Assembly: GCF_910592395.1 (NCBI RefSeq)
Contig: NC_088326.1
Coordinates: forward strand, 4,531,001-4,595,000
Origin: Lineus longissimus
Taxonomy: Eukaryota; Nemertea; Pilidiophora; Heteronemertea; Lineidae
Reading direction: 5' to 3'
Length of the DNA stretch: 64,000 bases
Part shown: in pieces, positions 10,746 to 38,660 of the stretch
How positions within the stretch are numbered: position 1 is the first letter of the stretch
How the letters are laid out: every line of letters begins with the position of its first letter
The notes under the pieces: model-generated
Databases searched by the model: none
Told to the model about the DNA's origin: nothing
What the model saw: the letters and a program-made list of their open reading frames with translations, nothing else
Program-made: the position numbers and the translations under genes

Positions 10746-13663
10746 TGCTCAAGAAGTCAGATAGCCCTTGGAGCTCTCCGATCGTTCTGGCCAAGAAAGC
10801 TGATGGCTCATACAGATTATGTGTGGATTACCGGAAACTTAATTCAGTGACAGTCAAATCAGCACAGCCATTAGCTCGAATAGATGATACTCTGAACAAA
10901 CTTTCGGGAGCCAAGTTCTTCTCTACTCTAGATTGCGCCAGTGGCTATTGGCAAGTGGGTATGTCACCTGAGGATCAGGCCAAGACATCGTTTGTGACGG
11001 GAGTAGACCAATATGAATGGAAAGTGATGCCATTTGGTTTAACAGGAGCCCCTGCAACGTTCACACGCATGATGAACACAGTCCTGGGAGGACTGGACTT
11101 CTGTTTGGTTTACCTCGATGATATCATTGTTCATTCATCCAGTTTTGAAGAACACATGAGTCAGCTGGATCAAGTATTCACACACCTGGAAGCAGCCAAT
11201 CTGAAGTTAAAACCAAGCAAGTGTAAACTTTTCCGAGAGATGGTGAAATTCCTTGGCCACATTGTGAACACTGGAGGCATATCAACAGATCCAGAGAAGG
11301 TTGAGAAAGTAAAAAATTGGCCTACTCCAACTTGTGTGTCAGAAATTCGTTCGTTCATGGGTCTTGCGACGTACTATCAAAAGTTTGTCCCAGACTTCGC
11401 TCAAATTGCCTCTCCATTGCACAATTTGACAAAGAAGGGTGTGCAATTCGCGTGGTCGGAGCAGTGCGAGAAATCTTTTCAGACATTGAAGGAGAAGCTG
11501 ATAACTTCACCGATACTGGCCTATCCAGATTTCAGCAAGGACGCCGGATCTTTCATTCTGGATACAGATGCAAGCGATTTTGCCATAGGAGCAGTTTTGT
11601 CACAAAGGCAGAGAGATGGAACAGAGAAGGTCATAGCCTATGGGAGTAAAAGTCTACAAGGAGGTGAAATGAATTACTGTACAACAAGGAGAGAAATGTT
11701 AGCCTTTGTTACATTTGCAGAGCACTTCCGGTACTTTCTGCTTGGGAAGCAATTTCACGTGCGGGTAGATAATATGGCATTGAGATGGCTGTTGAACTTC
11801 AAGGAACCTTCAGGACAAATTGCGAGATGGCTAGAAAGGTTAGCAGAGTTTGACTACGTCATCGAACATCGGCCAGGAGTACAACATGGTAATGCTGATG
11901 CATTGTCTAGGAGACCAAAGAAAGTTCGGCAACATGGACATTGTCCATCCTGTGGACCCACAGACCGACCAGCACCTCCAATGGTTAACATAGTGCAACT
12001 AAAAACTTCTCTAGACATCCCGGAACTAACGATTGATGAGATCAGGAAAGCTCAGAAGGAAGATCCAGATATTCGGGCCATTCGACAACATATTGCTGAG
12101 ACGACGGAGAAACCATCACAGAAGGCACTACAGTCATGTAGCTCTCTCCAGCGAGCTATTTGGGCTCAGCATGGTCTACTGGAAATAAAGGACGGAATCC
12201 TATACTTGAAAAGCCAGGGCAAACTCCGACTAGTTCTTCCTCAATCCTGCATTGCCACAGTCGTCAAGGAATTACACCAAGGTTATGCTGGTGCCCATCT
12301 TGGAGTACAAAAGACTGTCTGGAAAGTGAAACAGCGCTGTTGGCTCCCAGGACTGAAGAAAAATGTAATAAATTTCATTCGTTCTTGTGAAACTTGTCAG
12401 AAGTGCAAATCCGGAAAGCGCACTAAAGCCGACTTACAGAGTATTCCAGTTGGTCGTAGAAACCAAAGAATTCACATTGACATCGTAGGACCAATCAACC
12501 CACCATCAAGGAAAGGAAACCGATACATTCTCGTGGCCCAGGATGCTTTCACAAAATGGCCCGAGGCGTGGCCTATCAGGAATCAGAAGGCTACAACATG
12601 TGCTAAGGTGCTGGTGAATGAATATGTTTGCAGATTTGGTACTCCAGAGAACCTTCACTCGGATCAGGGGACTAACTTTGAATCCAAAGTATTCAAGAAA
12701 ATGTGCAAACTACTAAATATTCATAAATCCAGGACCACAGCTTACCATCCGCAATGTAATGGACAGGTTGAAAATTTCAATGGATCTTTGAAAAGAATGC
12801 TGACAACTATGGTTGACGAGGAGGGTAGGGACTGGGATAACCACCTTCCAGCTTCCCTAATGGCCTTTCGTTCAGGAATTCAAGCTTCGACCTTAGAGAC
12901 CCCAGCTGCGATGACCTTTGGTGAAGAAATGAACCTTCCACTAGACCTCGTCCTTGGAACATCTAGTACATCAGACAATGAGACTGAGTCAACGAAGTAT
13001 GTTTCGGATCTCCGGAAAAAGATAGAGCGTGCAAACCGAAGGGTACGGGAAAATTTGAAGATAGTGCAGAGACGTCAAAGGACCCACTATGACAGAAATT
13101 CGAAGTCCTCATCTTTTAAACCGGGAGACCAGGTTCTAGTCAGAAACCATTATGTGAAAGTCGACGAGGTTTCCAAGTTCCATAAACCATGGAAGGGACC
13201 ATTTGAGGTTTTGCAGAAGTTGTCCGAGGTCAACTTCAAGTTATTTCCACTGGGAGGATCCAAGAGGCACTCCAAGGTAGTTCATCTCAACAATATGAAA
13301 GCATTTCATACGGGGAGAGATGGGGAGCAGCTGGATGAGATAGGATTAGTAGGGAAAACTTCAAGAGAAACTGCATTAGATTCTCACGAGGTGGAGTCCG
13401 ATTTGGAATCTTCCCCTATTAAGTCTACTCAACTCACTGATAGTATTTCTTCCGAGGATGGTTCGGACATTGAACATGAAGAGAAGCAGTCTACACGTGC
13501 ATTACGACCCCGCAAGAACATCTTGAAGCCGGCGCGTTTTGGAATTGATTGCTGCAGCCTTCATCAGATGCAACAGGAAATCATCAAGAAGAAGAAGAAA
13601 CGTTGGTTGAAGAAAGGCAGTAAACTACGCAGGTTTGGCTGTCAGGATAGCATCAATAGTTAG
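10746..13663 (+). pseudogene. Gypsy pol: reverse transcriptase, RNase H, integrase (5' truncated)
   Basis: Open for about 970 codons. Domains in order: reverse transcriptase from the LLKKSDSPWSSPIVL segment with VYLDDIIVHS as active site, RNase H (ILDTDASDFAIGAVL...), the integrase H2C2 zinc finger (ELHQGYAGAHLG to CETCQKC), the integrase core with DDE residues in HIDIVGP, HSDQGTNF and GQVENFNG, and a GPY/F-like module (KPWKGPFEVL). No chromodomain is visible. The tail is Ser/Glu-rich and then basic, ending RPRKNILKPARF and a KKKKK run. The frame runs back into the Harbinger terminus (about five codons from 10730), a chance fusion. Loss of gag, protease and the N-terminal fingers means the copy cannot retrotranspose alone. 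The key acidic residues are retained. Confidence 0.9.
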
Positions 13664-13742
13664 TCAAGATGGAACCCCTGGTCTCCTCTCAACGCTTTGT
13701 TAGAGATGGAGGCTTGTGCCGCTTTGGTCACAATGTAGGTTA

Positions 13743-13780
13743 CTAATGAGACCGTTTTCTTTCTTTTCCTATCGTTTCAG
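13743..13780 (+). promoter_or_regulatory. Strong splice-acceptor-like tract just before ORF3
   Basis: A pyrimidine-rich run (TTTTCTTTCTTTTCCTATCG) ends in TTTCAG immediately followed by the ATG of the SGNH-like ORF at 13781. This suggests that ORF3 is expressed from a spliced, env-like subgenomic RNA. The donor would be in the missing 5' part, so this is inference. Confidence 0.55.
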
Positions 13781-14656
13781 ATGGAGTCCGTTATCAATCA
13801 AGATGGTTTGCCGCATGATGTGAAAGAGGCAAAGTCTGAAGCTACAAAGGCCCTATATTCGTTTGTCCATCGAAGACTCCGGTTTCGTCAGGAGGTGGAC
13901 ATTCCTTTTATTGAATTGGAGCGATTGATAGAAATATCCACATCAAATGTTGTCGACGTAAAACTCACTCTCACCAGTGCAGTTAACCAAACATTTAAAA
14001 TGCTGATTTTCCGGATCCGTCCCAGCTGGAATGTCCAGATGAAAGCTATTAATGAAGTGGTAACCCTTGTCATCACGTTTCTTAAAGAAAGAGGTGTCAG
14101 TGATTTGAAAATTAATGATGTTAGAGATCGAGTACGTGTGCTGCAAGATAGAGTTAGGGAGTACAATGCCGCTGGGAAGCAGCGTCCGCCGATTTTTCTT
14201 CTCGGGGACTCCATGTTTGTCAAGACCAAGCCATCGTCAGATCTGTTTCCATTAGCTTTTTCAGGGCAGACGGCAGAAGGGTTGAGAGTGATGTTGAAGA
14301 GCATTCAACCCAGACTAAATATCAGCGATGTTGTCATCACCCACGGGCTTAACCACACTAACGACTATGGGGAGCCGGAAGAAGACATGATCATCATCAG
14401 AGATTTTCTGATACAACATTACCCCATGGCCCGCATTTTTCATCTTCAACTACCAGTGTCCCCAAAGGTGGCGAGAAGTGATGGTATGATGAGACGTGCA
14501 CTGCGATTTAACGGAATGATGCAACGAGTTGGATTCCAGTCCATTCCTCATCCGATGCTGAATAGATACGGATTTGACCATGACCAGTTCCACTACTCCA
14601 AGATCGGGAGGACCACCGTCGAGAGGCAGATTGTGCAGTATGTCAGGGGACAATAA
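13781..14656 (+). CDS. Third gypsy ORF: SGNH/GDSL-esterase-like protein
   Basis: 291 residues in the env position, 117 bp after pol. The N-terminal ~135 residues are helical and basic with no signal peptide or membrane segment, arguing against a normal envelope. The C-terminal half reads like an SGNH hydrolase: FLLGDSMF (Ser144), a Gly in the SGQTAEG segment, THGLNHTND (Asn194), and DQFHYSKIG with Asp268 and His271 spaced as in the catalytic DxxH pair. The family cleaves ester bonds in small molecules or lipids; the role in an LTR element is unknown. Esterase-type ORFs occur in CR1-like LINEs, and I recall captured GDSL ORFs in bdelloid rotifer LTR elements. The start is the first Met, set right after a splice-acceptor-like tract. 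The frame is intact. Confidence 0.7.
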   Translation: MESVINQDGLPHDVKEAKSEATKALYSFVHRRLRFRQEVDIPFIELERLIEISTSNVVDVKLTLTSAVNQTFKMLIFRIRPSWNVQMKAINEVVTLVITFLKERGVSDLKINDVRDRVRVLQDRVREYNAAGKQRPPIFLLGDSMFVKTKPSSDLFPLAFSGQTAEGLRVMLKSIQPRLNISDVVITHGLNHTNDYGEPEEDMIIIRDFLIQHYPMARIFHLQLPVSPKVARSDGMMRRALRFNGMMQRVGFQSIPHPMLNRYGFDHDQFHYSKIGRTTVERQIVQYVRGQ

Positions 14657-15194: not shown

Positions 15195-15474
15195 TGTGGT
15201 GATCTCCATCTTGACGGCACCGTTGCTAACTGTTGCGAACTGTTGCTACGCAGGGTGACGTCATCACCGGGTTTGGCGCATCCTCCTCATGTGACGTATG
15301 TCGATGAAGCCGACGTCTTCGGGCGACGTCGGGCGGTCACGGCAGGGGATTGTTGAAAAATGTATTGTTGGAAGAAAAAGGCGGAAGGAGGGCGCACGAA
15401 ATAAAAAAGAGAGACACCGTATTTGAGCCGGTTTATGGCATTTATTACAAGAAGAGGAGCGGAAGATTATTACA
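15195..15474 (+). repeat. Gypsy 3' LTR (about 280 bp)
   Basis: Starts TGTGGTGATCTCC after a purine-rich tract and ends ATTATTACA, the TG...CA form of LTRs. It contains an AATAAA-like signal near 15400. The partner 5' LTR is not in the window, so the exact borders and target duplication cannot be verified. The right border coincides with the point where sequence shared with the tandem array begins (GCTGCATCGATTT). Confidence 0.6.
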
Positions 15475-15928
15475 GCTGCATCGATTTTATTTATTATGAC
15501 AATCAATAAAATCGATGACAAGATTCGTGAATTTGAAGAAACCCGACATAACATAAACCGTACCTCAGTTCAGTACAGTATGTCACCTGTCTAATTTACA
15601 TTAGTAGGCAAGTCACAATCGAGGCTGGACCGAGCAGTTGATTAAGCGGAATGGGAATTTCATAACAACCTTCTTCCCCAGTACCTTTATTCATTCCAAT
15701 TGATCATCGTAAATTTCCCGAGGGGGTGTACAGTACTCTATAGCCCTATCCCTAAGGTCGTTATCTCGAGTCTCGATATGTATTTGCTGTTCCTTAGACT
15801 GCGTATCCGGCCATCCATAGACTGTTTGCTTGTACAGACTTTTCATGTTATATGTTCTCTTGATATTTCAACTTTGTTGATACAAAGCCTAGACAAAAGC
15901 GGTTATAGTTCAAATTATCCTTGCCCAG

Positions 15929-16090
15929 GGGCCGGTTGCACAAAAGTTATGGTGATAAAAGTATGTTAGTTTATCTTTTTATGTTAAAGTCCCTAACTTA
16001 GCGTTAGCTAACATAACGCTAAAATTGAGTTTCACAAATCAATGTTAGGCCCAATGTTAACTAACGCTACTTTTAAGTAAATCAATGTTA
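15929..16090. repeat. Harbinger left terminus with TAGCGTTA subterminal motifs
   Basis: The terminal inverted repeat is followed by several GTTAG, TTAGCGTTAGC, TAACGCTA and CAATGTTAG words in both orientations. The right terminus has similar words, so these are candidate binding sites of the MYB-like partner. Confidence 0.65.
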
Positions 16091-16150
16091 GTTGCTAGGG
16101 ACATTTCCCATAATGCATTTGGTCCTCATATTGAAAGCAAGACATGCAAG

Positions 16151-18511
16151 ATGGCTGCCTCCATAGAGAATCATTCATCTCAAAAGACAAAAAGGGAGAG
16201 AAAACCAAATTTTTCACACTCAGAAGCCGAAGTTTTAGCCGATGTTGTCATAAATGAACTTGGGATCTTGCGATCCAAGTTTTCGTCAGATGTGACAAAC
16301 AAAATGAAAAAAAACAAATGGGATGAAATTGCCCTAATGGTAAGTTCCTTGGGAGTGGCCACAAGGACCGGGGATAACTGCAGGGAAAAATGGAACCAGC
16401 AGCTTTCAAAGGCGAAAGAGATCCATTCCCTGCAGCAAAAACACCAGAGAGGGACTGGCGGAGGGGGAAAGATGCCACAGGCCGACCCTACACTGCAGAG
16501 AATAATAGAAACATTCGAAAAAGACGCAGCATTCAGAGGCATCACTGGTGGATTTGAGTCTGCAGGTAGGTACACCAGGCTCCGATTTAGCCTAATTAGG
16601 CCATAAAACGCTATCTACTTCTACCAGCATATATTTCTGAACATAGGCCTAAGCCTTACATAGGTCTAGATTTCATAGCCTGATGTCAATCTTCAAAAAC
16701 ATTGGTGGAATTAAGCTCAACTCGGCCCTACCCTGGCTAAGTTCAAAGTATGTCGTCTGGTGCCTGCATCGATATTGGCACTCTGCCAGCCATTTCTGTT
16801 GGACTTCCTGTGTGTATAGCGACCATGTGTACATGCTGACATGACAGTGCATGCATGCATTTTTCAAGCGGCCGAAAGTACAGCTTTTCATGACCGTCAC
16901 TTAGAAATAGTACCATAGTAGTTGACTTCATAGCCCTATAAATCAAATTCATCAGCAGATAAGGTAGTTCAACTGCACAAAAGTACAGAAAATGTGGTTA
17001 TTCGCTGCTCCAAATACGCGCTTGCAAATTTCCCGACTCCATATTTCTAAACGCACTGAGCATGCCCAGTAAGTGTATGGAACGCAAAGTTTGCAAATAG
17101 TACTATACAGGGTGAAACAGAAATAAGTTCCAATATAAATATTTTTGTTAATACTTTTAATTTATTCAATAAGTCATGTGAATTACCTCAAAGAATTAAC
17201 AAAATGATCGCAATTGTACACATTAGGCCTATTGTTAAGCTGACATCACCCTGTTTTAATGGAATATCATAGAAATTTGGATTTTCAATGGATTTAATTA
17301 GAATTTATTGATTTTTCCCGCCAATTTATGTGATTCATTCCCTTTAAACTTTAAAACTTTCATTTGTTAATATTTTCAGTAACCACACCTATAAAGGCTA
17401 CAGCAGCAGTCTCCCTCCCTGTTACATTACCTGATCTGGCTGGTTGGACTCCTGGTAAGTTTAATTTAAAGGTGCTGGAAGCTCGATGATAAATATGCCC
17501 ATGTCAATTAAGAGCCGAGTATTTCTTAGACTATGATACATTACATTGGTACCGGTATACAATGGAAGAAATACAAGTAGGCCAACTGAGAAACAGAAAG
17601 CGACTGTAGTGACCCGGTTAGACATCATGCGTCTTTAATTTAGAAATAGTAAAATTATTTTTTATGATAATTTCATTTAATTTTTCAGTAAATCAAGCTG
17701 CAGATGTTGATGTCGACTGCTCAGATGCAGTGGTTGTGGCAACCTTTGATCGTCAACCACACGAAACACACATAGAGGGAGCCACAATAATTCTTGGTAT
17801 GCTATTAGATACAGGTTCGGTCTTTCAGTAGGCTATTAGGCCCGGGGTCTAATACTGCATCGATGCTGATAGCCTGGCCCACACCTCATATATCAAGGCA
17901 TTTGCATTTTGGATATTTGAATCTATATTTGCCAGAGTTTTGGTTGCAAAACATTTTGTGACCTTTCGTGATTTGATATTTATCATCATATAGGCCGAAC
18001 TGTCATTTTTTATTCTAGATTCTCAACAGACGATGACAGCCACTGCAATGACTGCCCCAAAATCTCCAGCCAAAAAGAAGGCCAAACTGTGCAAAGTCAC
18101 TGGTGAGTAGTTGGGACTCTAGAATGGCGAAAGCCTTTCTTGATTTTAAGCAGTCCCTACATGAATCAATCAAATGTGCTAAAATGAGCTCTGGCCGTTC
18201 ACAAAGTGACAAAATTGAAGTGCTGTGTGATCCATTTAACCCGTCATAATTTGTTTCATTCTCTCCTAGGTGCCAGGAAAGCACATGCGAAGGGTCTGCT
18301 GACAGACGCCATGTGCCGACAGAAGACTCAGCAGGATGTATTTAACATGCAGCTTGAGGTCCTTGAGGCAACTCTTGTTACGCAGAAGGCCACAACACGT
18401 ACTCAGGAAGTTCTTCAGAAAGAGGCTGGCCTTCGAATAGAAAAGCTACAGCTGGAGATTGCTCTGCTGAAGGAAAAGGAGTTCTTGGGTCTGTCGGGCA
18501 TTGAACTGTAA
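16151..18511 (+). CDS. Harbinger MYB/SANT-like DNA-binding partner (307 aa)
   Basis: In this superfamily the partner binds transposon ends and brings the nuclease into the nucleus. Five exons: 16151-16565, 17380-17454, 17689-17796, 18019-18102 and 18270-18511, all with GT/AG borders, every intron in phase 1; spliced length is 924 bp. The MYB/SANT-like domain spans about residues 19-90 (NFSHSEAEVLADVV ... NKWDEIALMV ... RTGDNCREKWNQQL), then a Gly-rich GTGGGGK linker, an acidic/Val middle, a basic nuclear-signal-like SPAKKKAKL and a coiled-coil Gln/Leu/Glu tail. The start is the first Met after an in-frame Met-rich leader (16085); the context AAGATGG favours 16151. Stop 298 bp from the converging nuclease stop. 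Complete and unbroken. Confidence 0.85.
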
Positions 18512-18808
18512 ATTTATGTGTAAATAGTATCTATGTTTATAGGATTTGAATTTTTTAAATATTACATATATTAAATAGTAAATATATAGTAAATATCAAG
18601 TTATTTAAAACACAAAGGGAATGTATCAAAATTAGAAGCTACAGTGTCAGTGACATGATGAAAATGTTATGGTATATTTCTTACGCGAGTGTTGATTATG
18701 CAATACATATAGTTATAGTTTTTAAGTTTGAAATTGGAAAATTCACTGGCTGTAGCTTCCACTGTTTTGATATATCCCCTCACTCAGGTTGCAGTGGATC
18801 ACAGTCAA

Positions 18809-20420
18809 TTAAGCAAAGTAGCGATTGGCGAGGTAGTCCCTGTAAACACTGCCAGAGTTTGGGCCAGCATACTCCTCATCATCATCTTCATCATCTTCTT
18901 CGTCATCACTGTCGTCGTCTTCTGGCCGGGGGTCACGTTCTCCTCTCATCTTTGCAATATTATGCAGGACAAAACAGGCAGAGATGATCTTAACTACACG
19001 GTCTGGCTGCATACGAATCTCCCCATGGAGAACATGGAACCTCCTCTTTAACACTCCAAAGGCATGTTCTATCCTCACTCTTGTGGCACATAAGGAAGTG
19101 TTCAATCTCTGCTGGGCTTCTGTTGTGGGTGCTCCGTACGGGACGATGAGATACGGCATACAAGGGTATCCACTATCTCCTAGCAACAGTCCATCTTCAC
19201 CTCTGGGGTTTGTCAGTTCCAGGTGCTCTTTAAGGTCACTGTTCCTCCAAATAAAGGCATCATGGGTTGCCCCTGGCCAACGTGCAACTACATTGGTGAA
19301 TTTTCCTGAAAAGGAAATGTATCATTTTAGTTAGGAGGGCTATTGATCATTATTACACGACCACTCCGTATTTTATTATATTCAACATATTTCAGCATCA
19401 ACAAGTTTCTATGCAATTAACGATGAAAAAATACAAAAACTATGCATATTCTATCTTTATGAGCAACAGTGTACAAGAGATAATTTTTGCATAAATGGCA
19501 TTCCATATGTTTTGTTGGTCAGGCAATCATGGAATTGGTCAACGTTCGTTTACCAAAAAAGGCATGTCAGTCATGGTGCATGTCATGATGTCGAGGATGT
19601 GGCGCTTGTTGTGATATCATGGATATTGGCCCTAGTATTTAGCATGTTTTCAGGTATAATTATAAAAGTAATTACCCTTATCGTCAACCACTGCTTGCAC
19701 GTTGATGGAGTGATATCCCTTCCTGTTTACAAAAGATGCTTCGTAGGCTGGAGCTGGAGGAACTTGCGCGGGTTGTTCTGCTTCTTCCATGGCTTCGCCT
19801 TCGCGATCTGCAGGCATGGGCAGTGCAGGTGCATGTGCAGGATCAGGAGCATGTAGGCCTATCTGGTCATCTCGCATCTCCTGGTCATTCTCAGCAGCAT
19901 TGGCTGGTTCTGGGATGTGATCAGCATCAGGACGTGGCTCACTGGGGCATATTATTCTGATGTGCGTGCCGTCGATGCATCCCAATACTTTGGGAAAATG
20001 TGCGATCGCATAGAATCCAGCTTGAATTCGACGCCTCTCCTCCACCGACTGGGGCCACACAATAAAATCGTCCCGTGCAGCATCTAACAGGCCAGCCACC
20101 CTGTGCACCACACGACTTACACTAGCTTTGTCTACACCGAAAGTGTCCCCAATAACTTCAAAGAAAGCTCCAGATGCAAAATAACGGAGAGCAATCAAGA
20201 CTTGCACCTCAGGCGAAATTGCATGGCTTCTGTTGGTCGCACTTTCAATGTCCTCCCTGAGCATATCAACTATCAAAACAATGGTTTCTCTGCAAAAACG
20301 GTATCTTTTAAAAAGTTTTTTGTCATTGAAGAACTCCAAGTGATTGATTCTTTCTCTAAAATGCCGTGGAGCTTGAAATAATGGCTGGAAAGCCACAAAC
20401 AGGGCCTGGTTGTCCACCAT
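18809..20420 (-). CDS. Harbinger nuclease (HARBI1-like DDE transposase, 413 aa)
   Basis: Transposase that cuts at the terminal repeats. Two exons, 20420-19676 and 19305-18809, joined by an intron with GT donor and TTTTCAG acceptor; 745+497 bp gives 413 codons plus stop. DDE_Tnp_4 residues: Asp150 (GCIDGTH), Asp264 (WPGATHDAF) and Glu328 (RIEHAFGVLKRRF). An N-terminal helix-turn-helix region includes GDTFGVDKASVSRVVHRV. Unusual: about 70 residues rich in Pro, Ala, Glu and Asp (about 160-229) lie between the first Asp and NRKGYHSINVQ; these are absent from the second Harbinger's nuclease. The acidic C-terminal run is also odd. The frame is complete, so the protein may be active. A close copy lies inverted at 3-1488. 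Confidence 0.92.
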
Positions 20421-20455
20421 TTTGTTTCAACTAACTCCAAAATAGGGATTTATCT

Positions 20456-20609
20456 TGGGGTTAGGAGGTCAGTTAAAGTTAGCGTTAACTTAACGCTACT
20501 TTTAAATAATTTTCTTTCTTGCAACCCAAATTAACTTTTTGGAGTTAAGTTAACGCCAAGATAAACTAACAGTGTTTTTAACTATTTTTTTCTTTTGTGC
20601 AACCGGCCC
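20456..20609. repeat. Harbinger right terminus with TAGCGTTA subterminal motifs
   Basis: Contains AAAGTTAGCGTTAACTTAACG, split as overlapping GTTAGCGTTA and TTAACGC words, plus GGAGTTAAGTTAACGCC and AACTAACAG, then the terminal repeat. It mirrors the left terminus in motif content but not in order, as expected for clustered protein-binding sites. Confidence 0.65.
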
Positions 20610-21671
20610 CAGGCCTGGCCGATCCCTGGTTCAGGGGTCCACCAGGAAAGTTTGTAACCCAAGCAGCCGTCATCCGTAGCCAACAACTTCCGCAGCATCA
20701 AACATATTGAAATTTAGCAGGGAGATTAAGCAATGTATTGACAGTCATGACGGTGTATAGTTTGAAATGTCATACATTGTCATACATATAAGACAGAATG
20801 TCGGCCGAACAAATGATTATAGTATGCGTTGTCTAAGCTTTTGACTGCCACAGCCTTTCCTACAGACCCATATCTGTAAGAATACAATAGGGCCGGACAT
20901 TTTTTTCCACGGGAACGTTTTCTATAGTGTTTTTCATATCGTTTTGACCAAAGGTACGGAATCGCGTAGGAATAAAATAATTTTTGTCTTTGATTGGAGA
21001 CTGTGAGATTCCCCCGTGTTTGAAATCAAAGAGTTCGGCCTCTTCTTTAGCTATGTATCAAATCATAATGACTTTACGACATGACATACCACGGCCATAT
21101 CTGGTGACGGGTCAACACAAACCAATCTGATTACAAAATCAATGCCCATTGGCGGTGTGGAGGCAATGAGTTGGAGTGAATGGCTATTTATCAGCTCACA
21201 GGATAACAATAGGTCGGGTCTGGTCGAAGTGCGATATTGATTTTATTGACCCTGCGACTGTACAAGGCAACATCTGCATATAGAGAACCATTTGCTTAGC
21301 CTATTCTGAACCGAAATATTCGGACCTGTGTGCAGTCTGGGTAAAACGAAAAATCAAGTTCGTGTAGCTGTAACAGATGTCACCCTTCTTATAAGGGGGT
21401 CCTTAAGATATTGATGAATCAATACCTCAGCACCACGTTCTGCATCATGATAGAGACATTTTCACTTCAATCTGCCGTGAAGTATTGTCATGACAAACAT
21501 ATTTTCGGATTTGGTTCAGCGCCTAACAACCTTCTGAGATAAAGAGTAGGTTTCAGTCTGATTTCCATGGTCATGGTCATTTAACGGAAGCGGCGAAACA
21601 AAGAATTTTATTTCGTATTGATTACCTTCGTCGCAAATAACTTAAATGGGGAAAAAGACACAACCGGATGG

Positions 21672-24084
21672 CTACAGGTTGATGTAAACGGGAATTTTCA
21701 TGATTGATAGTGATCTTCCTCGATTATCCAGTGACACCAACGTACCGTCGTTCGCCATAATAATTGTATGTTCACGATTGATGGTTACTGGCATCCGATA
21801 TGTTTTGTGGAAGTTCCAAAAAAGTGGCATAAATTCAGGAAGAGGTAGATAATCAATTACAACCGGTTTCCCTCGCTTCTTGCTTTTCTTTGTTAAGGCA
21901 ATCAGTATAATTATGGTCATTTCAAAGACAACCATATGTATTGTACGCAATTGCCCTATTGTCGTTTTCTGGGTATAGTTGCTTCTTTCTGTGTAGAGCA
22001 AGATGCACTTGTGAACTTTGAAATTTACAATTACATCATGAGTGGCAGTGATGTAAATTTGAAATCTAGTGTATGCATGAATGTTCATGTACACATCCAG
22101 CTTTCTCCACATAGTTGATCTCCTCACCTCTCCCTTTCTCTTCAACAACAGTAAAAACACCAAATACTACACGTTTGGCTCGATTCCTCCTGATGGAGTA
22201 GACGGCAAAGGCTTGGTCAGAATAATCGGGGCGAGCAAGTTGGTATATTCTTTGAAATTTCCCTTTTCCTTGCTGACTTAGATGTTCTACCGAATAATAA
22301 CCAGTGACTTTCCTCTTTTGAAAGTCAATAACACAGAATGACATCACGCTCACTAAGCTGCCATTGATTACTCTAAAGAAAATAAACTTTCTAGAAATCG
22401 AGAACAGGTGCTGTGTGTCGTAACGGTCCCCTTTCGTTACCAAAGCATGAAAACCAGTGCGGTGACGATGAAAATCTTCCAAAATGAACTCGTTTGTCAA
22501 GCTGTTGTACAGTACATGAATTCTTAAAAATCCTGAAGTTCGATGTAAAAACTTCGGCCGAATTTTGACCTCTTTTTACTTTATCCGCTTTATCGCTTTT
22601 CCTAGAAAATATTTTAAGTGTTAAAACACCTTGGTTGAAAACAAAAATGTGAAATTTAATTAAACCTATATGGTTTCTTACACGTCCTGAATGATAATAT
22701 GCTCTTCAAGATTTAAAACACAGTACTTTTGGTATTAAACGACAACTGTTGTGACGTTTCGGATCAATTCCCAGTTTTAGTCTACCAACATCAGGTTTAA
22801 GAGACACGCAGTTTTCCTCGGAAGGAAATCGAGAAAAACGTATCAATTTATCATTCAGAAGAATGTGGGGAGACACTAAAAAGCGGTCAAAACCCTTTAT
22901 TGGAGAGATCCGTGTTAGGGGTAAAATGATGCCCCCGCTGCTGTCTGTAGTATGTAACTTCATTCACGATATGATTTCAGTTTTGCAGACAGCCTCGCTG
23001 CGTCAAGGTAAGTACCAAATTTGCTTGCCATTCTAGTCATTGACATTATTTCAAGCCGGAAAATGCTATGTCTCTAACAAATATTTTTCGAACAAAGGCT
23101 TGAAATGCAATATGACAACTTTTTTTAAATAAGAACCGCACAAAAAATTCCCTACCCCCCCCCCCCCCCCGATGATGCTGTGTTGTCAACCAATAGTGAA
23201 ACTTTTGTAGGTATCCATGCCATTTACCAAGCAGAAGGCTTATACCTTGGCTGGGCAGTTATAAAGTTGTCTCACCTTGCTCCTGCACCTATAAAATGGT
23301 GAAGGCCCTAATCATTCTGATCGGAGAGTGTCCATTGATTTCGTTTTAACTTATCTTAACTTTTAAAAAGACAAACAACCTGGAACAAATAAAAATCATT
23401 TCGTCTACACATTGGGAGGGGTAAAGTAGGTGAATCGATTCATGCTCCAATCAATCTAACATGTCTAATACGGATTCCATGGATAGTACAGTGATGGGCC
23501 AATGGTAGATACGACTATGTCGTTCCATCCATGGATCTTTAATAAAGATTCTTCATTGATCAATGGATGGAACACTTGATGATTAATCACCGTCACAGAT
23601 CCATGGATGGACACTTTTGCCGTGCAGAGGTTAACATCCAACTTCGTACAATTTCCCATTCGGGGCTGCGACAACAGCATTTTCGACTGCTAAACATTTT
23701 TATATGAATGAAATCAGGCATGTTCGAAAAGAAAAACTGCCTTTATGAATCAGAGTCCCGCCGGCTGTGAGTTCGACTCGGTGACCCATTGACCGCCAGC
23801 AGATCAGAGGCCCCAAAGCTACTCGACCACAGCGACTTGATGTTGTGAGGGTGCGACAAACAATGCTATTACCTTCTTTACAAACACTCTTCCCCCTTGA
23901 CACGTGATTCACCTTTCCTCCGACAAGGTGACCACGTCATAAACCTACAAAAGTGTTGTGCCTTCTTCATCCGAAGGTTAAAACCGGCGAAACCTTCATA
24001 CCTCGCACAATGCATGGAACAATTGAAACGGGATCGTGTCCAATGTGACGCTCCATATCGAAATAAATTGATATCGTCTTTGAC
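21672..24084 (-). pseudogene. PAN-family gene, array copy 1, broken
   Basis: Corresponds exon by exon to copy 2 (24383-26639). The PAN exon (about 24084-23873) keeps FDCSMHCARYEGFAGFNLR but its acceptor region has lost the CAG seen in copies 2 and 3. A middle exon lies at about 23680-23465. The long C-terminal exon (22611-21672) has a TAA early in the frame where copies 2 and 3 have CGG ATG AGG TAC, and an 11-bp deletion near 22105 (relative to CTCTCTTCCGTATTTG in copy 2) that shifts the frame, leaving two overlapping frames. The normal stop is lost (TAA to TAC), adding four residues. Function unknown; see copy 2 for the family description. Confidence 0.75.
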
Positions 24085-24281
24085 ACAAGAGTAGTAAAAG
24101 TAATCGATACGTTTGGACAATTCGTTTTACAATTTGTAAAGGCTATAAGATTTTGATAGAAAATAAAATAGTAAAGCTTAAAAAATCGAAAATATTTATT
24201 GCTTCGACAACTTGCAGAGCTGAATTCATCATTCATATCCATGATAGTTTCACTCAATCCGTTATTCAGCTTTCAGATTTT

Positions 24282-26880
24282 AACATAAGCGGCGAAACAA
24301 AGAAGTTTCTTTCGTATTGATTACCTTCGTCGCAAATAACTTAAATGCGGACAAAGACACAACCGGACGGCTACAGGTTGATTTAAACGGGGATTTTCAT
24401 GATTAATAGTGATCTTCCTCGATTATCCAGTGACACCAACGTACCGTCCTTCGCCATAATAATAATATATTCACGATTGATGGTTACTGGCATCCGATAT
24501 GTTTTGTGGAAGTTCCAAAAAAGTGGCATAAATTCAGGAAGAGGTAGATATTCAATTACAACCGGTTTCCCTCGCTTCGAGATTTTCTTTTCCATCAATA
24601 TAATTGTGGTCATTTCATAGACAGCAATATGATGTATACGCAATTGCCCTATTGTCGTTTTCTGGGTATAGTTGCTTCTTTCTGTGTAGAGCAAGATGCA
24701 CTTGTCAATTTTGATAAAAACAATTACATCATGAGTGGCAGTTATGTGAATATGAAATTTAGTGTTTCCGGGAGTGTTCATGTACACATCCAGCTCTCTT
24801 CCGTATTTGTTCACATAGTTGATCTCCTGTCCTCTCCCTTTCTCTTCAACAACAGTAAAAACACCAAACACTACACGTTTGGCTCGATTCCTCCTGATGG
24901 AGTAGACGACAAAGGCTTGGTCAGAATAATCGGGTCGAGCAAGTTGGTATATTCTTTGAAATTTCCCTTTTCCTTGCTGAATTGGTTGTTCTACCGAATA
25001 AAAACCAGTGACTTTCTTCTTTTGAAAGTCAATAACACAGAATGATTTCCAGTCCACTAAGCTGCCATTGATTACGCTAAAGGCATAAAACTTTCTAGAA
25101 ATCGAGAATAGTTTCTGTGTGTCGTAACGGTCCCCTTTCGTTACCACAGCATGAAAGCCAGTGCGGTGATAATGAAGATCTACCAAAATGAACCCATTTA
25201 TCAAGCTGTTGTACAGTACCTGAATTGCTAAAAATCCTGAAGTTCGATGTAAAAACTTCGGCCGAATTTTGACCTCTTTGTACCTCATCCGCTTTATCGC
25301 TTTTCCTAGAAAATATTTTCTGTGTTAAAACACCTTGTTTGATAACAAGAATATGAAATTTAATTAAACCTGTATGGTTTCTTACACGTCCTGAATGATA
25401 ATATGCTCTTCAAGTTTTAAAACACTGTACTTTAGGCATCAAACGACAGCTGTTGTGACGTTTCGGATCGATTCCCAGTTTTTAGTCTACTTACATAAGG
25501 TTTAAGACACCCGTAGTTTTCCACGGAAGGAAATCGAGAAACACGTATCAATTTATCATTCAGAAGAATGTGGGCAGACACTAAAAAGCGGTCAAAACCC
25601 TTTATTGGAGAGATCGGTGTTAGGGGTAAAATGATGCCCCCGCTGCTGTCTGTAGTATGTAACTACATACACGATATGTTTTCAGTTTTGCAGACAGCCT
25701 CGCTGTGTCAAGGTTAGTACAAACTTTGCTTGCCATTCTAGTCATTTTTTGTCAACTTTTGTAGGTATCCATGCCATTTACCAAGCAGAAGGCTTATACC
25801 TTGGCTGGGCAGTTATAAAGTTGTCTCACCTTGCTCCTGCAGCTATAAAATGATGAAGGCCTCTAATCATTCCGATCATAGAGTGTCCATTGATTTCACT
25901 TTAATTTATCTAAACTTTTAACAAGACAAACAACATGGAACAAATAAAAATCATTTCGTCTACACATTGGGAAGGGTAAAGTAGGTGAATCGATTCATGC
26001 TCCAATCAATCTAACATGTCTAATACGGATTCCATGGATAGTACAATGATGGGCCAATGGTAGACACGACTATGTCGTTCCATCCGTGGATCTTTAATAA
26101 AGATTCATAATCGATCAATGGATGGAACACTTGATGATTAATCACCGTCACAGATCCATGGATGGACACTTTTGCCGTGCAGAGGTTAACATCCAGCTTC
26201 GTACAACATCCCATTCGGGGCTGCGACAAGAGTATTTTCGACTGCTAAACATTTGTATATGAATGAAATCAGGCAGCTTAGAAAACAAAAACTGCCTTTA
26301 TAAATTAGCGACCCGCCGACTTGGAGTTCGACTCGGTGACCCATTGACCGCCAGCAGATCAGAGTCCCCAAAGCTACTCGACCACAGCGACTTGATGTTG
26401 TGAGGGTGCGACAAACAATATTATTACCTTCTTTACAAACACTCTTCCCCCCTTGACACGTGATCCACCTTTCCTCCGACAAGGTGACCACGTCATAAAC
26501 CTACAAAAGTGTTGTGCCTTCTTCATCCGAAGGTTAAAACCGGCGAAACCTTCATACCTCGCACAATGCATGGAACAATCGAAACGGGATCGTGTCCAAT
26601 GTGGCGCTCCATATCGAAATAAATTGATATCGTCTTTGACTGCAACTGTAGTAAAAGTAATAGATACGTTTGGACAATTCGTCTCACAATATGTAAAGGC
26701 TATAAGATTTGGATAGAAAATAAAAATAGCAATGCTTAAAAAATCGAAAATATTTATTGCTTCGACAACTTGCAGAGCTGAATTCATCATTCATATCCAT
26801 GATAGTTTCACTCAATCCGTTATTCAGCCAACTGTAAAACGACCGGTATATCAATCACTTTGCACCTGAAGTTTAACTCT
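24282..26880. repeat. Tandem array unit, copy 2 (head deleted)
   Basis: Aligns with the body of copies 1 and 3 but lacks about 1.4 kb of head, starting at the segment TAAGCGGCGAAACAAAGAAG. It also lacks the poly-C tract and its flanks near 25748. It ends where the head of copy 3 begins (GCTGCATCGATTTTATTG at about 26886). Confidence 0.85.
24383..26639 (-). CDS. PAN-family gene, array copy 2 (candidate, structure partly resolved)
   Basis: Uncharacterised family. Exons supported on -: PAN exon 26639-26428 (acceptor CTACAGTTGCAG, donor GTAATA, phase 0 end after two Lys) with an Apple/PAN-like pattern FDCSMHCARYEGFAGFNLR...HFCRF, in which the usual third Cys is replaced; middle exon from 26244 (acceptor TTTAG) holding CTKLDVNLCTAKVSIHG and ending near YYPWNP; and a long intronless exon 25305-24383 (acceptor TTTTCCTAG) of about 307 codons, beta-strand-rich, with blade-like repeats such as KDGTLVSLDNRGRSLLIMKI. 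A further exon between the last two is possible (about 25700-25490) but carries an in-frame stop here. No signal peptide exon was identified. PAN domains bind protein or carbohydrate, usually outside the cell; secretion here is inferred. The long exon differs from copy 3 almost only by amino-acid-changing substitutions. Confidence 0.5.
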
Positions 26881-29800
26881 TTTAGCTGCATCGATTTTAT
26901 TGATTATGACAATTTATAAAATCGATGACAAGATTCGTGAATTTGAAAAAATCGACATAACATAAACCGTACCTCAGTTCAGTACAGTATGTCACCTGTC
27001 TAATTTACATCAGTAGGCAAGTCACAACCGAGGCTGGACCGAGCAGTTGATTAATATAAGCGGAATGGGAATTTCATAACAATCTTCTTCCACAGTACCT
27101 TTATTCATTCCAGTTGATGATCGTAAATTTCCCGAGGGGGTGTACAGTACTCTATAGCCCTATCCCTAAGGTCGTTATCTCGAGTCTCGATATGTATTTG
27201 CTGTTCCTTAGACTGCGTATCCGGCCATCCAGAGACTGCTTGTTTGTACAGACTTTTCATGTTATATGTTCTCTTGAAATTGGAACCTTGTTGATGCAAA
27301 GCCTACACAAAAGCGGTTATAGTTCAAATTATCCTTGCCCAGGCCTGGCCGATCCCTGGTTCAGGGGTCCACCAGGAAAGTCTGTAACCCAAGCAGTCGT
27401 CATCCGTAGCCAACAACTCCCGCAGCATCAAACATATTGAAATTTAGCAGGGAGATTAAGCAATGTATTAACAGTCATGACGGTGTAGAGTTTAAATGTC
27501 ATACATTGTCATACATGTAAGACACAATGTCGGCCAAACAAATGATTCTAGTATGCCTTCTCTAAGCTTTTGACTGCCACAGCCTCTTCTATAGACCCAC
27601 ATCTGTAAGAATACAATATGGCCGGACATTTTTTTTTCCACGGAAAAGTTTTCTATAGTGTTTTTCATATCATTCTCACCAAAGGTACGGAATCGCGTAC
27701 GAATAAAAAAATTTTGTCTTTGATTGGAGGCTGTCAGATTCCCCCGTGTTTGAAAACAAAGAGTTGGGCCTCTTCTTTAGCTATGTATCAAGTCATAATG
27801 ACTTTACGACATGACATACCACGGCCATATCTGGTGACGGGTCAACACAAACCAATCTGATTACAAAATCAATACCCATTGGCGGTGTGGAGGCAATGAG
27901 TTGGAGTGAATGGCTATTTATCAGCTCACAGGATAACAAAAGTCGGGTCTGGTCGAAGTGCGAGATTGATTTTATTGACCCTGCAACTGTACAAGGCAAC
28001 ATGGGCATATAGAGAACCATTTGCTTAGCCTATTCAGAACCGAAATATTCGTATCTGTGTGCAGTCTGGGTAAAACGAAAAATCAAGTTCGTGTAGCTGT
28101 AATTGATATCACCCTTCTTATAAGGGGGTCCTTAAGATATTGATGAATCAATACCTCAGCACCACGTTCTGCATCATGATAGAGACATTTTCACTCCAAT
28201 CTGCCGTGAAGTCTTGTCATGACAAACAGATTTTCGGATTTGGTTCAGCGCCTAACAACCTTCTGAGATAAAGAGTAGGTTTCAGCCTGATTTTCATGGT
28301 CATGGTCATTTAACGGAAGCGGCGAAACAAAGAAGTTTGTTTCGTATTGATGACCTTCCTCGCAAATAACTAAAATGCGGACAAAGACACAACCGAATGG
28401 CTACAGGTTGATTTAAACGGGGATTTTCATGATTAATAGTGATCTTCCTCGATTATCCAGTGACACCAACGTACCGTCGTTCGCCATAATAATTGTATGT
28501 TCACGATTGATGGTTACTGGCATCCGATATGTTTTGTGGAAGTTCCAAAAAAGTGGCATAAATTCAGGAAGAGGTAGATATTCAATTACAACCGGTTTCC
28601 CTCGCTTCGAGCTTTTCTTTTCCATAAATATAATTGTGGTCTTTTCATAGACAACAATACGATTTATTAGAAATCGCCCTATTGTCGTTTTCTGGGTATA
28701 GTTGCTTCTTTCTGTGTAGAGCAAGATGCATTGGTCAATTGTGTTTACAACAATTACATCATGAGTGGCAGTTATGTGAATATGAAAACTAGTGTATACG
28801 TGAATGTTCTTGTACACATCCAGCTCTCTTCCGTATTTGTTCACATAGTTGATCTCCTGACCTATCCCTTTCTTTTCAACAACAGTAAAAACACCAAACA
28901 CTACACGTTTGGCTCGATTCCTCCTGATGGAGTAGACGACAAAGGCTTGGTCAGAAAAATCAGGTCGAGCAAGTCCATATATTCTTTGAAATTTCCATTT
29001 TTCTTGCTGACTTAGATGTTCTACCGAATAATAGCCAGTGACTTTCCTCTTTTGAAAGTCAATAACACAGAATGATTTCCAGTCCACTAAGCTGCCATTA
29101 ATTACTTTAAAGACATAAAACGTTCTAGAAATCGAGAATAGTTTCTGTGTATCGTAACGGTCCCCTTTCGTTACCACAGCATGAAAGCCTGTGCGGTGAG
29201 GTTGAAAATCTACCAAAATGAACCCATTTGTCAAGCTGTTGTACAGTACCTGAATTGCTGAATTTCGATGTAAAAACCTCGGCCGAATTTTGACCTCTTT
29301 GTACCTCATCCGCTTTATCGCTTTTCCTAGAAAATGTTTTAAGTGTTAAAACACCTTGGTTGAAAACAAAAATGTGACATTTAATTAAACCTATATGGTT
29401 TCTTACACGTCCTGAATGATAATATGCTGTTCAAAATTTAAAACACTGTACTTTTGGTATCAAACGACAACTGTTGTGACGTTTCGGATCGATTCCCAGT
29501 TTTGGTCTACCAACATAAGGTTTAAAACACACGTAGTTTTCCACGGAAGGAAATCGAGAAAAACGTATCAATTTATCATTCAGAAGAATGTGGGGAGATA
29601 CTAAAAAGCGGTCAAAACCTTATTGGAGAGATCCGTGTTAGGGGTAAAATGATGCCCCCGCTGCTGTCTGTAGTATGTAACTTCATACACGATATGATTT
29701 CAGTTTTGCAGACAGCCTCGCTGCGTCAAGGTAAGTACCAACTTTGCTTGCCATTCTAGTCATTGACATTATTTCAAGCCGGAAAATGCTATGTCTCCAA

Positions 29801-31062
29801 CAAATATTTTTCGAACAAAGGCTTGAAATGCAATATAAATACTCTTTTTGATTTTTTAGAATAAAAACCCCACAAAAAGTCCCTATCCCCCCCCCCCCAC
29901 CGATGATGCTGTGATGTCAACCAATAGTGGAACTGTTGGGGATATCCATGCCATGTACCAAGCAGAAGGCTTATACCTTGGCTGGGCAGTTATAAAGTTG
30001 TCTCACCTTGCTCCTGCAGCTATAAAATGATGAAGGCCTCTAATCATTCCGATCAGAGAGTGTCCATTGATTTCGTTTTAACTTATCTTAACTTTTAAAA
30101 AGACAAACAACCTGGAACAAATAAAAATCATTTCGTCTACACATTGGGAGGGGTAAAGTAGGTGAATCGATTCATGCTCCAATCAATCTAACATGTCTAA
30201 TACGGATTCCATGGATAGTACAATGATGGGCCAATGGTAGATACGACTATGTCGTTCCATCCGTGGATCTTTAATAAAGATTCATAATCGATCAATGGAT
30301 GGAACACTTGATGATCAATCACCGTCACAGATCCATGGATGGACAACTTTGCCGTGCTGAGGTTAACATCCAGCTTCGTACAATTATTCGGGGCTGCGAC
30401 AAGAGCATTTTCGACTGCTAAACATTTGTATATGAATGAAATCAGGCAGCTTAGAAAACAAAAACTGCCTTTATAAATTAGCGACCCGCCGACTTGGAGT
30501 TCGACTCGGTGACCCATTGACCGCCAGCAGATCAGAGTCCCCAAAGCTAATCGACCACAGCGACTTGATGTTCTGAGGGTGCGACAAACAATGCTATTAC
30601 CTTCTTTACAAACACTCTTCCCCCCTCGACACGTGATTCACCTTTCCTCCGACAAGGCGACCACGTCATAAAACTACAAAAGTGTTGTGCCTTCTTCATC
30701 CGAAGGTTAAAACCGGCGAAACCTTCATTTCTCGCACAATGCATGGAACAATCAAAACGGAATCGTGTCCAATGTGGCGCTCCATATCGAAAGAAAATGA
30801 CATCGCCTTTGACTGCAACTGTAGTAAAAGTGATAGATACGTTCGGACAATTCGTCTCACAATATGTAAAGGCCATAAGATTTGGATAGAAAATAAAATA
30901 GTAACGCTTGAAAAATCGAAAATATTTATTGCTTCGACAACTTGCAGAGCTGAATTTATCATTCATATCCATGATAATTTCACTCAATCCGTTATTCAGC
31001 CAACTGTAAAACGACCGGTATATCAATCACTATGCCCCTGAAGTTTAACTCTTTTAGCTGCA
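26881..31062. repeat. Tandem array unit, copy 3 (complete, 4.18 kb)
   Basis: The reference unit: head 26881-28310, PAN-family gene on - (28413-30812), then the boundary with copy 4 at about 31062. It contains the unoccupied target sites that match the Harbinger (27340-27342) and the satellite-bearing insertion (27270-27276). A poly-C run is at about 29886-29897. The head is non-coding; the short ORFs there repeat between copies but carry no motif. Confidence 0.85.
28413..30812 (-). CDS. PAN-family gene, array copy 3 (candidate)
   Basis: Same layout as copy 2: PAN exon 30812-30601 (FDCSMHCARNEGFAGFNLR, donor GTAATA, phase 0), middle exon about 30418-30197 (CTKLDVNLSTAKLSIHG ... WNDIVVSTIGPSLYYP) and long terminal exon 29336-28413 open for 307 codons to the same IPV stop. 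The middle exon has lost a few codons around PNNCTKL relative to copy 2. The possible extra exon around 29700-29520 carries a small deletion (CCAATAAGG for CCAATAAAGGG), so either it is not an exon or the copy is damaged. In the long exon, replacements relative to copy 2 cluster in two blocks (about 28730-28830 and 28610-28680) with no silent changes seen. Function unknown; not a transposon protein as far as I can tell. Confidence 0.5.
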
Positions 31063-31437
31063 TCGATTATATTGATTATGACAATCAATAAAATCGATGA
31101 CAAGGTTCGTGAATTTGAAGAAACCGACATAACATAAACCGTACCTCAGTTCAGTACAGTATGTCACCTGTCTAATTTACATTAGTAGGCAAGTCACAAC
31201 CGAGGCTGGACCGAGCAGTTGATTAAGCGGAATGGGAATTTCATAACAACCTTCTTCCCCAGAACCTTTATTAATCGCAATTTATCATCGTAAATTTAGG
31301 GGGTGTACAGTTTTCTGTAGCCCTACCCCTAAGGTCGTTATCTCGAGTCTCGATATGTATTTGCTGTTGCTTAGACTGCGTATCCGGCAATCAATAGATT
31401 TTGCTTGTACAGACTTTTCATGTTATATGTTCTCTTG

Positions 31438-32940
31438 CAGAGCATGCTCCGCACAAAACAGTGAACTCTTCACTGTCTACATTTTCCGCTCACACAGTGG
31501 ACAGTTCACAGTTGGCCAGATGCTTTCGCCGTCTATTATCCGCTTCTTGAACTAACAATGAGTTGGCCCATACGTGAGACAAAAAGTTACCAGATTGTGA
31601 CTCGTGGCTGCGAATGATAGGACCCTGACCCCTGATCACTGCCAAACTTTATATGCGAGACAAAAAGTTACCTGGTTGTGACTTACGGCTGGGAATGATG
31701 GGACCCCGACCCATGACCACTGCCAAACTTTATATGTGAGACAAAAAGTTACCAGATTGTGACTCGTGGCTGTGAATGATAGGACCCCGACCCATGATCA
31801 CTGCCAAACTTCATACGTGAGAAAAAAAGTTACCAGATGGTGACTCGTGGCTGGGAATGATAGGACCCCGAACCATGATCACTGCCAAACTTCATATGTG
31901 AGACAAAAAGTTACCAGATTGTGACTCGTGGCTGTGAATGATAGGACCCCGACCCATGATCACTGCCAAACTTAATACATGAGACAAAAAGTTACCAGAT
32001 TGTGACTCGTGGCTGTGAATGATAGGACCCCGACCCATGATCACTGCCAAACTTCATACGTGAGGCAAAAAGTTACCAGATTGTGACTCGTGGCTGGGAA
32101 CGATAGGACCCCGACCCATGATCACTGCCAAACTTTATATGTGAGACAAAAAGTTACCAGATTGTGACTCGTGGCTGTGAATGATAGGACCCTGACCCCT
32201 GATCACTGCCAAACTTTATATGTGAGACAAAAAGTTACCTGATTGTGACTTACGGTTGGGAATGATGGGACCCCGACCCATGACCACTGCCAATCTTTAT
32301 ATGTGAGACAAAAAGTTACCACATTGTGACTTGTGGCTGTGAATGATAGGACCCCGACCCATGATCACTGCCAAACTTTATATGTGAGACAAAAAGTTAC
32401 CAGATTGTGACTCGTGGCTGTGAATGATAGGACCCCGACCCATGATCACTGCCAAATTTCATACGTGAGACAAAAAGTTACCAGATTGTGACTCGCGGCT
32501 GGGAATGATAGGACCCCGACCCATAATCATTGCCAAAATTCATACTTGAGACAAAAATTTACCAGATTGTGACTGGCGGCTGGGAATGAGAGGACCTAAC
32601 CGCCCCAACCCCTCATACTCCTGGCACATAGGGGAAAAACGTCTCTTATTGTGACATGTTGTTGGAAATGATACCGCCTGTAGCCGCCCATCCTCACTGC
32701 TAAAATGAAATAAAAGAGTCAAAATTTCAAGTTCAAATTGTCTATTCGGCAACAGTCAAAAACTATATATAGAACAAATTAAAAACACGTGGTCATTCAA
32801 CAATATTCCAGAATATTCAATGGTATTCTTCGTTGCGCAGAGAATGTGCGCAAAAGCAAACACACAGTAGAATGTTCACTGTTTAATGCGATATCGACAA
32901 CAGTGAAATGCTCTACTGTTGTATAGTAGAGAGTACGTTG
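31438..32940. mobile_element. Insertion with internal 81-bp minisatellite, 7-bp target duplication
   Basis: Flanked by TCTCTTG at 31431-31437 and 32941-32947; copies 1 (15856-15862) and 3 (27270-27276) have the site once, uninterrupted. Both ends are CA-rich and contain an AACAGTGAAC word facing inward, weak evidence for terminal inverted repeats. A 7-8 bp duplication would suit a hAT-like or related cut-and-paste element, but no transposase is present. The core is the minisatellite. Confidence 0.65.
31573..32590. repeat. 81-bp minisatellite, about 12-13 copies
   Basis: Tandem units each containing GAGACAAAAAGTTACC, GTGACTCGTGGCTG and GATCACTGCCAAACTT. Successive GAGACAAAAAG words are 81 bp apart. 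Later units (after about 32520) are more diverged. No spacers between units, so this is not a CRISPR array. Confidence 0.9.
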
Positions 32941-33180
32941 TCTCTTGATATTTGAACCTTGTTGATGCAAAGCCTAGACAAAAGCAGTTCTAGTTCAAAT
33001 TATCCTTGCCCAGGCCTGGCCGATCCCTGTTTCAGGGGTCCACCAGGAAAGTTTGTAACCCAAGCAGTCGTCATCCGTAGCCAACAACTCCCGCAGCATC
33101 AAACATATTGAAATTTAGCAGGGAGATTAAGCAATGTATTGACAGTCATGACGTGTATAGTTTGAAATGTCATACATTGG

Positions 33181-37236: not shown

Positions 37237-38660
37237 GTATTATTAGGGCTTGTACTCTGAGGCTACATTATTAGGGCACGTATTCTGTTGCTTCATTATT
37301 ATGGCATTTACTCTGAGGCTACATTATTAGGGCATGAATTCTGTGGCTACATTGTTAGTGCATGAATTCTGTGGCTACATTGTTAGTGCATGTCTTTGAG
37401 GCTACATTATTAGGGCCTGTACTCTGAGGCTACATTATTATGGCATGTATTCTGAGGCTACATTACTATGGCATGCATTCTGAGGCTACATTATAATGGC
37501 ATGTACTCTGAGGCTACATTACTATGGCATGTATTCTGAGGCTACATTATTATGGCATGTATTCTGAGGTTACATTACTATGGCATGCATTCTGAGGCTA
37601 CATTATAATGGCATGTACTCTGAGGCTACATTACTATGGCATGTATTCTGAGGCTACATTATTAGGGCATGTATTCTGAGGCTACATTATTATGGCATGT
37701 ATTCTGAGGCTACATTATTATGGCATGTACTCTGAGGCTACATTATTATGGCATGTATTCTGAGGCTACATTACTATGGCATGTCCTCTGAGGCTACATT
37801 ACTATGGCATGTACTCTGAGGCTACATTATTATGGCATGTACTCTGGGACTACATTATTATGGCATGTACTCTAAGGCTACAATACAGGGCATGTATTCT
37901 GAGGCTACATTATTATGGCATGTACTCTGAGGCTACATTATAATGGCATGTACTCTGAGGCTACATTACTATGGCATGTACTCTGAGGCTACATTACAGG
38001 GCATGTATTCTGAGGCTACATTATTATGGCATGTATTCTGAGGCTGCATTATTAGGGCATGTATTCTGAGGCTACATTATTATGGCATGTACTCTGAGGC
38101 TACATTATAATGGCATGTACTCTGAGGCTACATTACTATGGCATGTACTCTGAGGCTACATTACAGGGCATGTATTCTGAGGCTACATTATTATGGCATG
38201 TATTCTGAGGCTACATTATTATGGCATGTATTCTGAGGCTACATTATTAGGGCATGTATTCTGAGGCTACATTATTAGGGCATGTATTCTGAGGCTACAT
38301 TATTATGGCATGTATTCTGAGGCTACATTATTATGGCATGTATTCTGAGGCTACATTATTAGGGCATGTATTCTGAGGCTACATTACTATGGCATGTACT
38401 CTGAGGCTACATTACAGGGCATGTATTCTGAGGCTACATTATTATGGCATGTATTCTGAGGCTACATTACTATGGCATGTATTCTGAGGCTACATTATTA
38501 GGGCATGTATTCTGAGGCTACATTATTATGGCATGTATTCTGAGGCTACATTATTAGGGCATGTATTCTGAGGCTACATTATTATGGCATGTACTCTGAG
38601 GCTACATTATTATGGCATGTATTCTGAGGCTGCATTATTAGGACATGTATTGTGAGGCTT
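37237..38660. repeat. 28-bp minisatellite, about 50 copies
   Basis: Head-to-tail units containing GAGGCTACATTA and GGCATGTA(T/C)TCT, mostly 28 bp with a 27-bp variant (TTACAGGGCATG) and two common variants (TTATGGCATG and TTAGGGCATG). The variants recur in blocks, for example the TTACAGGG variant at about 37880, 37990, 38160 and 38410, suggesting higher-order amplification. Direct adjacency excludes CRISPR. Confidence 0.95.

Follow-up and report, generated by a model that had tools for sequence, protein, structure and literature searches.

Patchy exon change in a fast-diverging tandem paralogue array of Lineus longissimus

Do short clusters of amino-acid-changing differences between neighbouring copies of an exon reflect diversifying selection, or can they arise neutrally? 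The question is raised by a 64,000-nucleotide stretch of DNA from the nemertean Lineus longissimus (contig NC_088326.1, positions 4,531,001 to 4,595,000, assembly GCF_910592395.1), referred to here as the window and numbered from its first letter. A unit of ~4.1-4.2 kb is repeated in tandem in the window, and each unit carries one long minus-strand frame, giving three related frames. An earlier reading of the letters without database searches (the sequence-only reading) had proposed diversifying selection with gene conversion on an extracellular-type protein. We found that the tandem array is genuine and that its paralogues diverge fast; one member is dead, and change in the exon is patchy. 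Diversifying selection is plausible, at about even odds, and is the most likely driver of the patches, only slightly ahead of a neutral mosaic, which is weighed below.

The open frame of copy 2 (24383-25324, minus strand) has 313 codons, 301 of them from the first ATG at 25288, and ends in TAA. That of copy 3 (28413-29345, minus strand) runs to 310 codons, or 298 if counted from its first ATG at 29309. A single 9-bp in-frame deletion in copy 3 is the sole indel between the two exons, as against 7 gaps in 2030 aligned bases of the compared flanks. The fact that frames of more than 300 codons have stayed intact despite ~57 substitutions, with a lone in-frame indel, suggests that copies 2 and 3 are under constraint. 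The relative of the exon in copy 1 (~21675-22620, minus strand) carries ATA in place of ATG, an in-frame TAA at codon 15, an 11-bp frameshifting deletion and a displaced final stop. Judged by these lesions copy 1 is a pseudogene, a point that had been overlooked. On account of its lost ATG, in-frame stop and 11-bp frameshift, copy 1 was rejected as a live third comparator.

The disabled state of copy 1 is in line with relaxed constraint after duplication, under which all copies would be drifting to loss and copies 2 and 3 would not yet have been disabled. The ratio of amino-acid-changing to silent substitution rates (dN/dS), which does not differ from 1 in any pair, fits this history as well, and 57 substitutions placed neutrally still left the frame without any stop in 8% of 3000 simulated runs, a share that, being small, also lends some weight to constraint. 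However, neither the lone in-frame indel nor the clumping of variable sites found only in the exon (see below) would be expected under drift alone, and we regard this history as unlikely.

The differences between copies 2 and 3 are most conspicuous in two blocks. Variable block 1 of copy 2 (24701-24781, minus strand; copy 3 equivalent ~28731-28811) contains 10 changing and 0 silent codons, and variable block 2 (24581-24660, minus strand; copy 3 equivalent ~28611-28690) contains 9 changing and 0 silent codons. The same counts of ten and nine had been given for 24705-24800 and 24590-24660, bounds that touch 33 and 24 codons, of which 9 and 8 differ (17 in all); with the bounds widened as above the number is 19. 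Every one of these differences changes the amino acid (19/19, or 17/17 in the original bounds), second positions predominate (13 of 23 base differences within the wider bounds), and the two copies do not differ at all in the codons lying between the variable sites, all as described in the sequence-only reading. The mosaic sharing reported for copy 1 was also recovered: at the 19 block codons it agrees with copy 2 at 8, with copy 3 at 4 and with neither at 7.

How unusual is this pattern? Given a neutral expectation of 23.6% silent codons, the probability of 0 silent among 19 is 0.006, a figure uncorrected for the selection of the blocks by eye. The ratio of changing to silent codons was 19:0 in the blocks and 23:7 elsewhere in the exon (P=0.024, a post hoc comparison). 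Counted from the ATG to the end of the exon, the differences between copies 2 and 3 amount to 42 changing and 7 silent codons with gapped codons dropped; when the count begins where the frame opens, they are 44 and 7, with 4 gapped codons dropped. Among 3000 neutral simulations, a silent share as low as that observed or lower occurred in 5.1%, a run of at least 22 changing codons in 2.3% (longest changing run, P=0.023), and second positions making up at least half of the changes in 0.7% (P=0.007). The pattern of exon change in copies 2 and 3 is unusual but not overwhelming, and the blocks had been selected by eye.

These counts can also be accounted for by a neutral mosaic, in which the patches were converted in from more divergent unseen paralogues or mutate faster. 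The excess of changing codons would then amount to the usual ~3:1 preponderance of changing sites, combined with the choice of blocks by eye. We give this explanation a substantial chance, while thinking it rather less than evenly likely. The lack of any silent change in either block speaks against it, and no donor paralogue was seen within the 64-kb window.

The exon is distinguished from its flanks by texture, that is, by the short-scale clumping of its variable sites. At a scale of 15 bases these sites were overdispersed in the exon (1.88 against 0.88 expected, with none of 5000 permutations as high). Both tested flanks gave 0.94 and showed no such clumping, which is a further point against a neutral mosaic; at 30 bases, the far-upstream flank showed clumping at P=0.07. 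The overall level of divergence tells the flanks apart from the exon less clearly. In 96-base windows (step 48), copies 3 and 1 reached at most 19 differences within the exon and 14 within the flank, whereas copies 2 and 3 reached 11 within the exon and 12 in a flank. The latter result (12/96 against 11/96) contradicts the expectation that the flanks would be less divergent than the blocks, and a neutral mosaic accommodates it.

Exchange between copies, the other element of the sequence-only reading, was supported in two of the three segments compared. Copy-specific sites formed too few runs in the exon (P=0.006) and also far upstream (P<0.0001), as is consistent with exchange of tracts between copies, and the near-upstream flank showed no such shortage (P=0.82).

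Codon models were fitted with our own implementation, not with PAML. Exon dN/dS (bootstrap range) was 1.44 (0.82-3.32) for copies 2 and 3, 1.53 (0.89-3.25) for copies 1 and 2, and 1.04 (0.64-1.81) for copies 1 and 3. The values lie above 1, as diversifying selection had been expected to produce, but none significantly so. A single dN/dS for the three copies was 1.31 (free against a ratio w fixed at 1, P=0.27). Comparison of site models M1a and M2a gave twice the log-likelihood difference (2dlnL) as 13.75, with a nominal P=0.001 and 12% of codons placed at a ratio of 7.8. We rejected this P value as proof of selection, because 21 of 30 neutral two-rate (patchy) simulations, run as a control, also passed the 5% line. 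A statistic of 13.7 was reached by 3/30 neutral patchy and 0/30 flat neutral simulations. The observed statistic is 13.75 or 16.06 depending on the fitting set-up; the simulations ran under the set-up giving 16.06 and were scored against 13.7, which makes 3/30 an upper figure. With three copies, then, the standard site test can appear significant though a neutral patchy-rate model does nearly as well.

That neutral two-rate model scales silent and changing sites alike, with dN=dS in both classes. Its Akaike information criterion (AIC) was 3488.6, within 1.4 units of the 3487.2 obtained for the selection model with two changing rates, and this closeness favours a neutral mosaic. On the other side, an AIC margin of at least 1.3 (observed 1.38) arose in just 1/30 neutral-patch simulations and in 0/30 flat neutral ones, as against 23/30 simulations with selection. 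Taken overall, the models slightly favour selection.

A number of results weigh against selection as the driver. Exon-wide dN/dS is indistinguishable from 1. In a constrained patchy-rate test, where dN is kept from exceeding dS in both of the rate classes, the comparison with the free model gave 2dlnL 3.59, a value matched by 29 of 300 bootstraps (P ~0.10), which also suits a neutral mosaic. Copy 1 had been said to vary at the same sites as the other two; at the codon level this is no more than chance, codons hit on at least two branches of the three copies numbering 10 against 9.7 expected (P=0.53), and smoothed correlation of variation at the level of patches was weak (P=0.04 for copies 1 and 3, 0.10 for copies 2 and 3, 0.18 for copies 1 and 2). 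The ratio of changing to silent differences was the same in hot and cold windows (0 of 9 comparisons differing), and charge-changing replacements, 14 of 42, equalled the neutral expectation.

Comparison of the exon with the flanks gave evidence on both sides. Copies 2 and 3 show no overall exon excess, with 57/897 sites differing in the exon (6.4%) and 107/2030 in the flanks (5.3%; P=0.14). An excess was seen between copies 1 and 3 (exon 89/922, flanks 144/2716, P=5e-6) and between copies 1 and 2 (exon 81/931, flanks 80/1492, P=0.001), and lies mostly on the disabled copy 1. When changes were assigned to branches (site numbers rounded, three-state sites omitted), changing sites exceeded flank sites over the whole tree (85/680, two of them stops, against 123/1590, P=0.0003), a point in favour of selection, and silent sites did not differ from the flank (21/203, P=0.22). 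This excess is located on the copy 1 branch, where changing sites were at 42/680 (a count that includes two stops) and the flank at 46/1590 (P=0.0003), with silent sites also slightly raised (10/203, P=0.09). The changing to silent ratio of copy 1, 42:10, is neutral, and the pseudogene exon changed about twice as fast as its own flanks, in keeping with a neutral mosaic. For copies 2 and 3 alone, changing sites stood at 43/680 against 77/1590 in the flank (P=0.09). The earlier proposal of diversifying selection stands in part: the slight model preference, the clumping, the second-position excess, the longest changing run and the tree-wide excess over the flanks speak for it, and dN/dS, the constrained test and the recurrent-site test do not.

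The explanation that we favour is a fast-evolving array of unclassified paralogues whose exon patches were diversified mainly by selection, with exchange between copies in addition; we hold it with a confidence falling a little short of an even chance. A ~4.1-4.2 kb segment bearing one long minus-strand coding exon was multiplied in tandem; two copies remain open and one is disabled. Change in the exon is concentrated in short patches, and both tested flanks are free of such short-scale clumping. The product may be a fast-evolving unclassified protein with tolerant or diversifying stretches in a steadier framework, in which ~12-17% of codons would fall in the fast class according to the selection models, and short tracts were probably swapped among the array copies. 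If selection is indeed the driver, the locus would hold a family of unclassified proteins whose diversification takes place in patches of the exon, and would be a candidate recognition or conflict gene.

What kind of protein do the frames encode? Searches of Pfam with copies 2 and 3 gave 0 families at expectation values (E) up to 10, a sequence search of the PDB with copy 2 yielded three sequences (best E 0.088) and no relative, and Rfam gave no match at gathering. In the comparison with viral contigs, 2 stretches fitted a pattern and none was confirmed. An AlphaFold model built with two sequences had a predicted local distance difference test score (pLDDT) of 28; it was unusable and therefore uninformative on the fold. 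The label of an extracellular-type protein was not supported by the frames, which lack a signal-peptide-like start, have isoelectric points of 9.9-10.0 and contain two cysteines each. The start, MRYKEVKIRP, is not signal-like by hydropathy, the only measure applied, and an upstream exon may lie outside this frame. The highest mean hydropathy over 19 residues was a borderline 1.64 for copy 2, at residues 18-36, and 1.22 for copy 3.

Acceptor-like sequence, identified by eye, precedes the frame in all three copies, and upstream exons may therefore exist. The candidate splice acceptor AG lies at 25306-25307 in copy 2 (minus strand; TTTTAAC ... TTTTCTAG/GA, the slash marking the putative junction) and at 29327-29328 in copy 3 (minus strand). 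A search upstream for a first exon encoding a signal-like start gave one frame, in unit 2 only, and no convincing exon; several small conserved upstream frames occur on both strands, and none of them was singled out. The acceptor-like sequence ahead of each frame and the stop codon ending it allow a form in which each unit would supply an alternative terminal coding exon. The units, as such exons or as separate genes of an unrecognised family, would then make up a recognition-type repertoire of an undescribed kind, its patches diversified by selection together with short conversion tracts and its flanks even. We consider this improbable, though worth stating.

The array consists of unit 1 (20608-24270), unit 2 (24279-27343) and unit 3 (27338-31437), all given without strand. 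Unit 2 is shorter and has no counterpart of ~27344-28308, and a counterpart of ~31001-31437 is absent ahead of it. Fragments of the unit lie at the left end (15474-15929, no strand assigned), separated from unit 1 by a transposon, and at the right end (32941-33179, no strand assigned), past a 1.5 kb insertion at 31438-32940 that interrupts an array unit and contains 12.7 copies of an 81-bp repeat. A PIF/Harbinger-like element with inverted ends (15930-20610) is lodged within an array unit. It has a Myb-like open reading frame at 16061-16606 and a DDE_Tnp_4 frame at 18809-19321, and ~2 kb of it is present again, inverted, at 1-2014 with 99.6% identity.

Over the window as a whole, whose content looks eukaryotic, Pfam assigned to a single frame the domains of reverse transcriptase, RNase H and integrase; its other matches were DDE_Tnp_4 accompanied by Myb-like frames, a transposase of DDE_1/Tc5 type and a THAP domain. 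We take the transposons of the window to be of Gypsy, PIF/Harbinger and pogo type, labels that are our own. A retrotransposon pol frame of 979 residues, followed by a frame of 305 residues without Pfam match, occupies 10724-14656 (plus strand), and an open DDE_1/Tc5-type transposase frame of 485 residues lies at 56975-58432 (minus strand). A 28-bp repeat is present in ~51 copies at 37239-38659. Two further long open frames, at 42648-43451 (plus strand, 267 residues) and 59028-59972 (plus strand, 314 residues), have no Pfam match, and no relation of the array exon to either was detectable. The latter matched designed propeller proteins in the PDB at E 1.1e-5 for the whole sequence, with no single stretch passing, a match perhaps inflated by the identical repeats of those designs.

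Arrays of recognition or reproductive proteins can be shaped by diversifying selection together with gene conversion. The present array resembles those in its clustered replacement change and in the mosaic sharing among paralogues, and is itself known from sequence alone. A second likeness is to the three-finger toxins of snake venom, for which the available portion of the published account describes an 'accelerated segment switch in exons': exon segments differ strongly, introns are >85% similar, and the switching is proposed to change the protein surface with the fold kept (PMC2711939). Short, strongly differing exon segments beside similar non-coding sequence are common to both, and the likeness is one of pattern only, with no family relation claimed. 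As far as that portion goes, whole segments are swapped for unrelated ones in toxins of known fold (PMC2711939), whereas here the differences affect single codons, and the protein is basic and unclassified, with no signal peptide found in it. The small serum protein genes of the Habu snake, in the part of the report available, have four exons and encode known serum proteins of a different family; their array likewise contains tandem paralogues, transposon fragments and a pseudogene piece, and there too coding change was compared with intron change (PMC6609765).

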